This document shows, piece by piece, positions 4,731 to 63,991 of a stretch of DNA of 64,000 nucleotides. Location: positions 25,051 through 89,050 of the IMG/VR virus record IMGVR_UViG_3300020205_005279; one strand, 5' to 3'. The notes beneath the pieces are model-generated. The model saw only the letters and a list, made by a program, of their open reading frames with translations. It was not told the DNA's origin and ran no database searches. The DNA comes from a virus. How positions within the stretch are numbered: position 1 is the first letter of the stretch; each line of letters starts with the position of its first letter. Made by a program: the position numbers and the translations under genes.

Positions 4731-7700
4731 ATGCCTAAGTCAAAAAGTGGCGGGAGACTAAAAATATCCAGGTCCCAACCACAACTCTTTTTTCAGCGCG
4801 AAAGTGCTGAAACTGAAGTCAAGTACTTTGGCTTAGAGCGGGACAATGCGCTGAATGATCTCGAGTCCAGGGATAAGGCCCTGGCCGAGGTTCTTCGAGA
4901 CATTCAAGATCCTGCAGAGGCTTCTACTCTTGGAACTTTTAACCCTACTGACCTTCAGATTCTCGACGGAGTCGAAAGATTTGATCTAAAAAAAGAAGAC
5001 TTTGAAATTCTTGTTGGCTCTTCTATAAACGCTCAAGATGATAATGGCGTGGCATCTGCCTTAGTTAATCCTCGCCAACGTATTTCTGATCGCATTGCCC
5101 AAGCTGAGCAGTTTGCCGGGCGAGGAACAAACTACCAAGGCCAGGGCACAGTACTTTATAAGTACTATGTGCCTGAAACTCAGCCCACCTCCTCGGCAAA
5201 TAAATACTCGCACACCAACCTCCCGCCATTCTTCACCGAGGCTATAACTTCCTCGTTAGAAAATTCCCCAGATTTTATCCCGGCCAACTCAGCGCAAATT
5301 GCTAATACTCACCGGCTTGGGTACATTGAAGACGGGGTTTTTGTCCCTCAGGTGGAGAACGAGTATTGGTGGAGTGGAGAATACGATACATATTTAAATG
5401 AAGTAAGCGAGTATGGTAACGCTACTGAAACTGCACTAACAAACCCCAAATTTCCTATTGTTCGCGATGGAAATATGAAGTTTGATCAAATACTTCCAAA
5501 GGGGATTAATACTCGTTATAATTGGGGGTTAAGATTTGACGCTTGGTTTAAAAGAGACTCTGACGCTGCCATAATGAGGTGGGCAGCGCAAGTTAACGGA
5601 CATCTCCGCATTGACTACTTTGATAAGAGCGGATACAATTCCACAACAGGGGCCGTAGAAGGGACTTGGAAAACTGCTCTTAATACGGCCGATGGTTCTA
5701 CTTATTACACTCAGTTTTCAAAAGAGATCCCAGTGCCCAGCCTTCTTGGAGGAAGGTTGTACTATGTTCAAGGTGGCCCAACCACCCCATTAGGAGCTGG
5801 AGATGGTACATTACCTACACAAAGATCAGAGGTTGATGGTTCTGCGTTAGACCTAACAAAAACCTATCTTGATAAAGAAGGAAACCCAATTAAAAATTTT
5901 GATGATGACTATGTTCCTGTTATTATCAGGTTTTGGTACGGTCAACCATCAACCGATCCGGCTCAGACAAATGTGCTAACAAAGCAACCTCTGGGCCCAG
6001 CAAGTTTTTTTATCGAGCTACTGGACACAAATCTTGCACTTATCGACCTTCCAAAATGGAATGACTATTCCGCCTCTATAAAACTCGGGTGGGATACTGC
6101 CACAAGCGCGTGGGTTGTTAATACCGGTGCCGGGGAAAGCGCAATTGGCGAGGCAAACTTTACCAACTTTAATGAAAACTTTGAAATTATTGCCCACACT
6201 CCCTTAGGAGCAACACAACCTGGAGCTCTATCTGGCTACACTGTACCCTCTATTGTGATTATTGCCACTAAACTCGCACCGGTACTCGGAGTTACCAGAG
6301 CCACGTTTAACATTAGTGGAATTAACCCAACAAACGGGCAAACAATTTGGGTGGTGGCTAGAAACCGTGTATTCAGTGTCATTCCAGGTGGTTCAAGAAA
6401 CAGAGATTCTCTCTGGCAAAACTACCTATTCAACCCCAGTCCAACGGACAAATACAGAAGCGCCGACGATCTTCTAGAGGGGGTAGGTGAGAATTATAAA
6501 GACCCAAACCCCGCAAAAGCTACATTTGAAGAAAATTTAGATTTATACAAAGCTACTTTTGGAAGTCTTCCAGCCCTTAGTACGTACACCTCAACTAGGT
6601 ATGATGGCACCCTGCCAAACTCCATAACAACTGCTAGCGCGCAAAGGGACTATGACTATAACCACGCAAAACTTCTAGCAATTGGCCGGCAAAAAAAGGG
6701 AACGACAGGAGAAGTAGGTACTACGGCCCCGTATTCTGGTAAGGATTTAGCGCCAGATGAGGTTCGTAAAGCCGGAGAAAACTACACATTTTTTGAGGTG
6801 GTAGAGAATGAAGCTGGGTTTGGTGGCAATGTAATAATTAATGCGTATCCGTCTAACGATCTTGGGGTTGTTAGTACTGCCTCAACGTCAACGTATGGCA
6901 AAGCGCTTCATATGTTAGATAATACCACAACGTTTTCCAACGCACTACGGCAAAATATCTCTACTGTACAACTTAACAGATTACCATCAGACGGAGATTT
7001 TGCTCTTACGCTAAAAATCCTCTATGAAGAAGTGGATGGGCAGGGAAGATTCAGTTACGGGTCCTGGAATGGTTCTTCTTGGACTTATGACAATACCGGG
7101 GTAATTGCCCAACTTGCAATGGGAGCAACTTCTAGAAATCATTCTTCTAAATCAGGATTTGTAGCAGAGTTTACCAAAGGGGTAAATAACTACGGATTTT
7201 ATGGGTTTGTGGGGGTGCAAAGAACATCGTTCCCAAGCGCGTCACTTACAGTAAATGCGGGAGATGTGTCAATTACATCTGCAGGAGGCATTTTCACTCC
7301 GGACTCAACTGGGTCTAACAATGATCAGTATATCGGCTCAGAAATTTATTTCCCTGGAGACGCTACTGTACGGAGAGTAACGTCATATGTTGCTTCTACG
7401 GGTGTCGTAACTTTTTCCCCATCTAAGCCTGCCGGGGTATATTCCAACTGCGAGGTGTACTACAACCACCTCCAACTCGGAGGAGTGTTACCATCGAGCA
7501 TTGTAACAAGCGCCGGGGCCCAAACTGTTAGAACAAGTATTATTCCCGTTCCAGGTGCCGGAAACAAAGTTGAAAGAATTGTTCAAATTCGATTTGTATT
7601 TAACGCTGCTTACCAGTACCTAAGGGCCGATACGGGCGCTGGGCTTAACTTTGGCGAAACACTCTACGTAAAATCTGCTTTAACCCCCACTGAGTCCCGA

Positions 7701-60921: not shown

Positions 60922-61002
60922 TGCACGGAAGAGGACTTGAACCTCCATGCTGTTAAGCGGTAGCTTCTAAGGCTACTGTGTCTACCTTTCCACCACCCGT
61001 GC
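60922..61002 (-). tRNA. tRNA-Leu (UAG)
   Basis: Class II tRNA with long variable arm. Anticodon arm GTAGC-CTTAGAA-GCTAC, T arm GGAGG-TTCAAGT-CCTCT. Its 5' end overlaps the last 21 bases of the HNH endonuclease gene. Confidence 0.92.
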
Positions 61003-61455
61003 TAGAGGTGTTCTATTAGAGAACGTGGGCGTTTGAGAGTGGCAATTAGGGCATAAAAGCCTTAAATTGTCAACAGTGTTATTATAACATTGACCATCTA
61101 TATGGTCAACTTGTAGTCTTAAAAATTTACCGTTCCACTCGGAAGAAATGCCGCACTGTTCGCATTGTTCCCCGCTCTCTTGAACAAGAAGCCTATAAAT
61201 AACGCTTCTTTTACAGTTTTTACCTTTAGTTAGAACGTACTCTTGTAATGTAGGCCATTTGTTTCTCCCACCAAAATTTCTTATTTTGGCAGTATAATCA
61301 GGTCTATAGTTCGGAATCCACTTAGAAGTTCTGCGTCTAAGAGTGTCTGGTCGGCAATTTAACTCTAGACATAATTCTGTAGGAGTTTTGCTTCCAGATA
61401 GCAGACTATTTATTATATAGTCTTTTTTGTTGTCAATGTCCTTTCGCACTCTCAT
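60982..61455 (-). CDS. HNH homing-type endonuclease
   Basis: A 157-residue protein. The N-terminal half (about 10-90) is basic and helix-turn-helix-like (TELCLELNCRPDTLRRRTSK). The C-terminal half is an HNH nuclease with a zinc-like pair C98-C101, VDHIDG (116-121), N130 and CPNCH (135-139). It lies inside the tRNA array, and its last seven codons are the first 21 bases of tRNA-Leu. Free-standing HNH genes of this kind spread by cutting cognate sites in related phages. An inverted repeat lies 5 bases ahead of the start. Confidence 0.92.
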   Translation of the reverse strand: MRVRKDIDNKKDYIINSLLSGSKTPTELCLELNCRPDTLRRRTSKWIPNYRPDYTAKIRNFGGRNKWPTLQEYVLTKGKNCKRSVIYRLLVQESGEQCEQCGISSEWNGKFLRLQVDHIDGQCYNNTVDNLRLLCPNCHSQTPTFSNRTPLARVVER

Positions 61456-63153: not shown

Positions 63154-63245
63154 TACGCCGTGCCGGAATCGAACCGACTATCTTACGGATTACGTGGTAA
63201 TCCAGCTCCATTGTCTGGGTGTCCTTACCAATAGACTACCGGCGC
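63154..63245 (-). tRNA. tRNA-like element with long variable arm, anticodon unclear
   Basis: Acceptor GCGCCGG/ACGGCGT (six pairs, one wobble), D stem GTCT/GGAC, T arm GTCGG-TTCGATT-CCGGC. The anticodon arm is CCAG/CTGG with a nine-base loop ACAATGGAG and no U at the usual position 33. A seven-pair variable arm GGATTAC/GTAATCC follows. A degenerate tRNA-Ser (GGA) is one reading; the alternative arm GGATT-ACCACGT-AATCC would show CAC. Confidence 0.55.
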
Positions 63246-63457
63246 GGGCGAGGGTATCCACCTACAATGTGCGAGTTACTTGGCATTTTGTTTAAATCCA
63301 GACAACTTAGTTGAACTGAATCTAAACTCCATTATCTAAGCACTTTCGCCATTCTATGATGTGGTTTAGGGGACCCTTCGTTTAAGCCCCCGTTCCTTGG
63401 AGGACCCTTGGTGGCCACCGGCACTCCAGATTATCAGCTCTGGCGCAAAGTGGCAAG
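63246..63457 (-). ncRNA. possible structured non-coding stretch between tRNA-like element and tRNA-Pro
   Basis: No convincing gene. Minus-strand hairpins include CCAGA/TCTGG, the palindrome GGTGGCCACC (63410-63419) and GGGG/CCCC. An eight-base direct repeat GGACCCTT occurs at 63371 and 63402 (plus strand). It may be part of a larger RNA with 63530-63913 that has tRNA-Pro embedded, but that is only an inference. Confidence 0.35.
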
Positions 63458-63529
63458 TCGGGGTGGGAGGGATCGAACCTCCGACATCCTGCTCCCAAAG
63501 CAGGCGCGCTACCGCTGCGCTACACCCCG
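63458..63529 (-). tRNA. tRNA-Pro (UGG)
   Basis: Acceptor CGGGGTG/CACCCCG, D stem GCGC/GCGC, anticodon arm CCTGC-TTTGGGA-GCAGG, T arm GGAGG/CCTCC. Confidence 0.95.
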
Positions 63530-63913
63530 AGATGCCCCGATTTTACACGTGAAACGTCTCAAGGACGGACAGAGGTGGGGGCTTGCTTTCAGCAGGGCCT
63601 GCATATTGGCCGGTAAGAGCGTTCGCTCCAGCAACACCAATGGCAAAACAGCCCTCAAGAAAGCACCACATATTAACGCCTGTGTTCGTGGCCGTGGCGG
63701 GAACTTAACGACGTATTCCATACGACTCCGGAGTCTAGAACGGAGAGTTTGTGGTGAGGCAACAGTTAAAGACTGCTGACAACCTTGACTCTATTAAAGC
63801 CAAGGGCCTCTCACAATATGCCAGGTTTCAATTTTTATCACCCAGGATTATGGAAACCTGTAAGACGGCATCCTGGGATTTTGGGTTTAGGAGTTAAGAA
63901 CTCCGCACCCCAC
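63530..63913 (-). ncRNA. candidate structured RNA with H-type pseudoknot
   Basis: A 384-base stretch without a supportable gene. Read on the minus strand, it begins with hairpin GGAGTT-CTT-AACTCC (63890-63904). Next is an H-type pseudoknot: stem 1 CCCAGGAT (63870-63877) with ATCCTGGG (63841-63848), stem 2 CAGGTTTC (63853-63860) with GAAACCTG (63822-63829), all eight pairs perfect in both. Then GAGGC/GCCTC encloses two hairpins (CCTTG/CAAGG and CAGCAGT/ACTGTTG). Further on are CGTAT-GGA-ATACG, the palindrome GACTCCGGAGTC (63724-63735), GAGC/GCTC and GGCC/GGCC hairpins. It lies between tRNA-Asn and tRNA-Pro, both on the same strand, so it is probably co-transcribed. Confidence 0.6.
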
Positions 63914-63983
63914 TGGCCCGGCAGGGATCGAACCTGCGACAACTTGATTAACAGTCAAGCGTTCTACCGCTGAACTACAGGCC
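63914..63983 (-). tRNA. tRNA-Asn (GUU)
   Basis: D stem GTTC/GAAC, anticodon arm CTTGA-CTGTTAA-TCAAG, T arm GCAGG/CCTGC. The acceptor stem has five good pairs and two weak ones. Confidence 0.92.
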
Positions 63984-63991
63984 ATTGAATA

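Follow-up and report, generated by a model that had tools for sequence, protein, structure and literature searches.

Small structured RNA modules, among them an H-type pseudoknot, between the tRNA genes of a cyanophage-like virus

What occupies a gap of 383 nt between two tRNA genes of a virus, if not a protein-coding gene? The gap lies in the window, i.e. the whole 64-kb stretch of DNA analysed here, which represents the final 64 kb of an IMG/VR record of 89 kb. The DNA polymerase encoded in the window is 71% identical to its homologue from cyanophage S-TIM5, so a cyanobacterial host is likely. Between 60.8 kb and the end of the contig, ARAGORN identified 16 tRNA genes, all on the minus strand, and the region 63530-63912 fills exactly the gap between tRNA-Asn and tRNA-Pro, both on the minus strand, in agreement with the first-pass annotation, which had placed the RNA on the strand of its flanking tRNAs. 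The features of this part of the array are as follows, in 5' to 3' order; other loci are designated by L numbers.

63913..63984, minus strand: tRNA-Asn(GUU), which borders the RNA region upstream (ARAGORN and Rfam)
63883..63912, minus strand: 5' leader with a GGAGUU/AACUCC hairpin, directly after tRNA-Asn (fold)
63822..63877, minus strand: module alpha, an H-type pseudoknot (chance test and 13 distinct copies with covariation)
63748..63817, minus strand: branched stem UUGUGAGAGGC/GCCUCACCACAA with two hairpins, a three-way arrangement (MFE fold)
63585..63747, minus strand: module beta (10 IMG/VR loci plus the window)
63532..63584, minus strand: module gamma (18 loci)
63457..63529, minus strand: tRNA-Pro(UGG), immediately downstream of gamma (ARAGORN and Rfam)
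63414..63455, minus strand: module zeta with the stem GCCACUUUGCGCC..GGUGGC (14 loci and alignment)
63246..63407, minus strand: module kappa, a new RNA family (blast, pattern scans, alignment and covariation)
63154..63245, minus strand: doubtful tRNA-like gene of 92 nt, called tRNA-His(atg) by ARAGORN, directly after kappa

The last of these genes is absent from the Rfam tRNA list; it has a long variable arm and may represent a wrong call or an uncommon RNA resembling a tRNA, and similar His(atg) calls were obtained in L017, L014 and L068. Also inside the tRNA array, an ORF of 157 aa (60982-61455, minus strand) has the look of an HNH endonuclease (CEQCG..DHIDG..LCPNCH).

Structured RNA modules in the tRNA-Asn/tRNA-Pro gap

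In the window copy of the 383-nt region, every one of the six frames is broken by 4-8 stops, and among related copies there are indels, for example of 1 nt and 10 nt, whose length is not divisible by three. A reading frame is therefore not credible, as the first-pass annotation had stated, and the search for a conserved frame that it had proposed as a counter-check did not speak against an RNA. Rfam cmscan gave no tRNA match inside 63530-63912. The minimum free energy of the region was only moderately low and about equal on both strands (z = -1.96 for the tRNA strand and -1.93 for its complement), so that fold stability alone is no proof and the case rests on homologues. As a blastn search of phages and plasmids with the 383 nt yielded no real match, these were traced through module kappa. 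Nearly full-length homology was found in L007, and beta together with gamma is carried by L010, L020, L054, L066, L069, L070, L016, L068 and L079. Further candidates (L003, L004, L006, L011, L076 and L077) proved to be chance pattern matches and were discarded.

Module alpha reads CCCAGGAU-(9)-CAGGUUUC-(4)-AUCCUGGG-(11)-GAAACCUG on the minus strand from 63877 to 63822, its third loop being A-rich. The two perfect, interlocking stems of eight pairs with loops of 9, 4 and 11 nt are present exactly as first described: stem 1 joins 63870-63877 with 63841-63848, and stem 2 joins 63853-63860 with 63822-63829. When both strands of the 64-kb window were searched for 8/8 stems with loops of up to 15/8/20, alpha was the sole H-type pseudoknot, its own mirror excepted, and 20,000 dinucleotide shuffles of the 383-nt region produced an 8/8 pseudoknot in 2 cases. 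Compensating changes among homologues had been suggested as a check, and both stems are kept by such changes. In 13 distinct copies stem 1 is paired in 91/91 cells, with CG, GC, AU and UA all present at one pair position; another position has U.G in 12 of 13 rows. Stem 2 is paired in 65/72 cells despite changing bases; permutation of its strands among the sequences equalled the observed pairing in 2/5000 trials, a figure which is no true probability as the homologues are akin. These cells were counted by a script on stems located via anchor motifs, since in a subgroup MAFFT places stem 2 one column out of line. Its clearest compensation is the perfect helix UGGAGGUUUGC/GCAAACCUCCA of L016 versus CAGGUUUC/GAAACCUG in the window. 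Alpha is present once in the window and twice in L007, where the copies lie about 490 nt apart, and it occurs elsewhere in the arrays of L015, L019, L068 and others.

The remaining parts of the region differ in how well homologues inform on them. For the 5' leader no homologue was found. The three-way arrangement noted earlier reappears in the MFE fold as the branched stem with two hairpins; it is kept only in L007, with changes mostly in loops, and is thus weakly tested. Module beta consists of a near-invariant core, CUCCGUUCUAGAC..GUCGUUAAGUUCCCG..ACAGGCGUUAA, and a variable hairpin domain (about 63585-63668); one helix alternates between CC/GG, AC/GU and AA/UU, with two double-sided pairs in 7 sequences. 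Module gamma, which was found without beta in some loci, follows the scheme GCCCCCAC..hairpin with CUUGA loop..GUGURAAA..GGGGC and contains an invariant CACCUC segment; 100% of its counted cells are paired and 3 pairs changed on both sides. Taken together, the RNA structure of the region is near certain, while we infer its function.

Modules beyond tRNA-Pro and their shuffling among phage arrays

Zeta and kappa are situated just beyond tRNA-Pro, outside the stretch to which the first-pass annotation had drawn attention. Zeta occurs elsewhere between other tRNAs. Kappa was first recognised when blast significantly matched it to DNA of Synechococcus phage DSL-LC03 that lies between two tRNAs and carries no annotation, and IMG/VR pattern scans built from this match revealed the family. 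It is now represented by 63 loci, including the window and S-CREM1, with 38 distinct sequences. It is composed of a hairpin with an almost invariant purine loop AAGGAAC, a helix AGRGU/ACYCU, a helix CCRC/GYGG with a variable hairpin insert, and a tail CGCCC. Ten of its 19 pairs change on both sides (104 two-sided cells), and the covariation score of 0.414 compares with 0.143 after shuffling and at most 0.155 after sliding. The 5' GGG has two possible partners, GUCCC, with which it would form a pseudoknot, and the CGCCC of the 3' tail; covariation favours neither. A group I intron-like helix order was considered and dropped, an intron match being absent. The median distance from kappa to the nearest tRNA is 3 nt (≤15 nt in 47/54); many copies start about 2 nt after the upstream tRNA, and some have no upstream tRNA. 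Among 84,980 genomes of bacteria and archaea, the kappa pattern was found on one MAG contig only. This sole cellular match (L072 2846-2873) is located on a 12-kb contig assigned to Microbacteriaceae which may be a mis-binned phage.

In total, 15 recurrent modules were profiled. Their order and combination differ between arrays:

Window: Asn-alpha-beta-gamma-Pro-zeta-kappa
L010: Asn-pi-alpha-mu-delta-eta-epsilon-beta-gamma-Pro-Ala-kappa
L015: zeta-Asp-epsilon-alpha-gamma-Arg
L019: gamma-Pro-Asp-theta-epsilon-alpha-lambda-Asn-Tyr-kappa

Across related phage arrays, alpha, gamma, zeta and kappa occur apart and reordered. The 383 nt are a mosaic of small modules (alpha, branched stem, beta and gamma) and not the one large ornate RNA that had been envisaged. 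All 167 of the 167 testable module matches lie on the strand of the neighbouring tRNAs, and kappa, gamma, zeta, abiF (see below) and pi are separated from the nearest tRNA by a median of 1-6 nt. Between the window and L066, the beta-gamma segment shows about 86% nucleotide identity, whereas the DNA polymerases are 38% identical at the protein level. Either the RNA cassettes move or they are kept far better than protein genes; judged from these identities, the comparison points to cassette exchange, for which the HNH-like ORF of 157 aa is a candidate agent. An apparent in-frame TAG in the DNA polymerase genes of two relatives proved to be the terminal stop.

Two further observations concern individual modules. 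In L071 (2965-3283, oriented coordinates), eta, lambda, gamma and abiF stand in a row and a tRNA gene was not detected in the locus, which suggests that RNA cassettes can exist without tRNAs. Module pi (L016 6640-6687, L017 9711-9761, L007 566-613) looks by eye like a second H-type pseudoknot, with helices CCCUCGUC/GACGAGGG interlocked with GCCUAC/GUAGGC, and UGCUCAGC/GCUGAGCA with GCCUAU/AUAGGC.

Comparison with known RNA families

The first-pass annotation had proposed kinship with GOLLD or ROOL, and tmRNA as a further model to be compared. Rfam cmscan of 63246-63912 up to E=10 revealed no GOLLD, ROOL, tmRNA, SAM-II or HDV-type match, GOLLD and ROOL were not matched from 55 to 64 kb up to E=5, and neither ARAGORN nor Rfam detected tmRNA or its tRNA-like domain. 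The same held for related loci, where Rfam returned only tRNAs and chance matches in L002 (E up to 10) and L016 (up to 5). GOLLD and ROOL share with the present RNAs their location in phage tRNA arrays and multiple pseudoknots, and tRNAs are sometimes found inside GOLLD, but each is one long RNA of fixed domain order, whereas small modules are found here, of which alpha, gamma, zeta and kappa stand alone and reordered. Of the first-pass proposal, the real pseudoknotted RNA thus stands, and its relation to the GOLLD/ROOL kind is not supported.

Other RNAs of phage tRNA clusters offer partial parallels. The T4 RNAs C and D are likewise stable RNAs directly beside tRNAs on the strand of the tRNA cluster, but RNA C has a tRNA-like T arm (GGUUCGAAUCC), and the comparison with RNA C and RNA D gave only chance matches of 7-14 nt. 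The cyanophage RNAs manA and wcaG (RF01745, RF01761) are structured and found in the same arrays, but they are separate families and cis-regulatory according to Rfam. In two arrays (L009 10212-10419 and S-CREM1, L063, 5170-5384), manA occupies precisely the space from one tRNA gene to the next, a position that speaks for a processed RNA acting in trans there and not for a 5' UTR element. Phage contigs with such arrays also contain tmRNA matches above gathering score (L062 3947-4204, plus strand, and L064 2078-2261, minus strand; of permuted and cyanobacterial type) and tRNA-Sec matches above gathering score in phage tRNA genes (L002 4436-4521, L055 11822-11905 on the minus strand, and L015 6518-6605), of which that in L002 is a tRNA-Ser(tga) according to ARAGORN.

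One module, iota, is a known RNA. It is the abiF RNA (RF03085) of Rfam, which reached gathering score in four arrays, each time standing alone:

L033 2874-2910, minus strand: abiF RNA
L063 (S-CREM1) 5486-5522, plus strand: abiF RNA
L064 2356-2407, minus strand: abiF RNA
L067 310-347, minus strand: abiF RNA

In L033 it lies about 12 nt after kappa. The abiF, manA and wcaG RNAs of S-CREM1 were already reported by the authors of that genome, who did not propose a role in defence (PMC9964418). AbiF RNA acts as a type III-like antitoxin which neutralises its toxin in trans by direct binding, the structure of its stem being important and the stem sequence not (PMC12373285). An Abi_2/AbiF protein was not found in nine records, most of them fragments, including the complete genomes of S-CREM1 and DSL-LC03; this search gave no more than a sub-threshold signal in the control genomes, so its sensitivity is not proven. 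Like the new modules, the abiF RNA is small, structured and flush with tRNAs in the same arrays and on the same strand, but it forms a hairpin family of its own, which alpha, beta, gamma and kappa do not match, and cmscan found no RF03085 match in the window. Alpha resembles the type III antitoxin ToxI in being an H-type pseudoknot RNA. ToxI, however, comprises 36 nt in tandem repeats, whereas alpha measures about 56 nt, occurs in single or isolated copies and has another sequence, and its region is flanked by tRNAs instead of an adjacent endoribonuclease toxin gene. As it is neither repeated in tandem nor placed beside a toxin gene, we do not file alpha as a type III antitoxin; by analogy it may nevertheless work like one, and the missing toxin gene is compatible with a stand-alone decoy, which would not need one.

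Possible role of the modules

How might such RNAs act? The region 63530-63912 would be transcribed on the minus strand within a tRNA polycistron, and host tRNA-processing enzymes would cut the RNA out of the tRNA precursor, as suggested by tRNA-Asn ending where the RNA starts and tRNA-Pro beginning where it ends. The modules would represent mobile cassettes common to cyanophage-like viruses, each of which, once folded, may bind a host protein in trans. By analogy to abiF RNA and AbiF, the most plausible role would be that of an RNA antitoxin or decoy neutralising abortive-infection RNases; a phage expressing pseudoknot mimics of ToxI is known to escape the type III toxin ToxIN (PMC3475682). 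We consider this sequence of events, from polycistronic transcript to antitoxin-like decoy, possible rather than probable. It is our best single guess because the new pseudoknot RNAs share their location and orientation with an antitoxin that is found without its toxin. On the other side, one known antitoxin stands among about 15 modules, the window has no abiF copy, and alpha is not arranged in tandem repeats as ToxI is and lacks similarity to any Rfam family. The high sequence conservation of the modules could be explained just as well if they bound ribosomes or other host factors.

Such binding leads to the strongest competitor, which we nonetheless regard as rather unlikely, namely stable RNAs acting on translation or RNA metabolism during infection via the ribosome, the anti-Shine-Dalgarno sequence or tRNA-modifying factors. 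The T4 rnaC/rnaD precedent, likewise directly beside a tRNA, the almost invariant AAGGAAC loop of kappa, the invariant CACCUC of gamma and ribosome binding of GOLLD reported from pull-downs (PMC12286853) are in its favour, but homology to rnaC/rnaD is absent and the SD-like and anti-SD-like strings are short. A single large, multimer-forming RNA like GOLLD or ROOL, one of whose linkers would hold tRNA-Pro, would suit the setting in a phage tRNA array, the joint location of alpha, beta, gamma, zeta and kappa around this tRNA in a single stretch, and the tRNAs sometimes seen inside GOLLD linkers (PMC12286853); the absence of any GOLLD/ROOL match, the separate and reordered occurrence of alpha, gamma, zeta and kappa, and the many loci where kappa alone was found, about 80-110 nt long and without the other modules, render it improbable. 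Recombination cassettes that fold as DNA, either attC-like or homing targets, would explain the obvious shuffling of modules and the HNH-like ORF in the same array. Yet the bias to the tRNA strand (167/167) and the retention of G.U pairs, which are mismatches in DNA, speak for RNA rather than DNA as the molecule under selection, and loops are conserved as well; we give this explanation little credit.

Even less can be said for a cis-regulatory element or riboswitch. An H-type pseudoknot with A-rich third loop recalls SAM-II, and cyanophage manA and wcaG are classed as cis-regulatory (PMC2864571), but SAM-II was not matched in Rfam, the next gene is tRNA-Pro and no reading frame follows, a regulated downstream gene is largely absent across the homologue maps, and in L009 and S-CREM1 manA itself directly adjoins a tRNA on either side. 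Self-cleaving ribozymes processing tRNA ends, like the HDV-like theta ribozymes, would account for the start of kappa about 2 nt past the upstream tRNA in many loci, but an Rfam ribozyme match is absent and kappa also occurs without an upstream tRNA. Its helix order, moreover, differs from that of HDV. We deem this reading very unlikely too, and marginally more so than cis-regulation, even though theta ribozymes do adjoin phage tRNAs (PMC10879173). Chance folding, remnants of tRNA genes or an overlooked coding sequence would agree with a whole-region z of only about -2 on both strands; covariation in four modules, the lack of a tRNA match in 63530-63912, stops in all frames and non-triplet indels make this possibility negligible, and the homologues already refute it.

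Extending the decoy reading, one can speculate that tRNA arrays of cyanophage-like viruses are combinatorial counter-defence islands of about 15 exchangeable RNA cassettes, many of them pseudoknotted, which form a shared pool and are kept and processed among the tRNAs; every cassette would neutralise another host defence protein that cleaves or binds RNA. This wider proposal is doubtful; if true, the orphan abiF antitoxin would be the first recognised counter-defence cassette and the alpha pseudoknot another. A description of kappa, alpha, beta or gamma was not found in the literature searched, outside which most subscription journals lie, and their novelty is not proven.

The analysis adds several covarying structured RNA families which are absent from Rfam 15, and kappa is present in two cultivated Synechococcus phages (S-CREM1 and DSL-LC03) and in dozens of uncultivated ones. 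The gaps between these phage tRNA genes constitute a shuffled RNA library and not spacer. Since S-CREM1 and DSL-LC03 can be grown, the role of non-coding RNAs in tRNA arrays becomes testable for phages, and the abiF RNA provides a concrete first hypothesis for this role: the RNA islands of tRNA arrays may serve as reserves of RNA decoys directed at bacterial defence.
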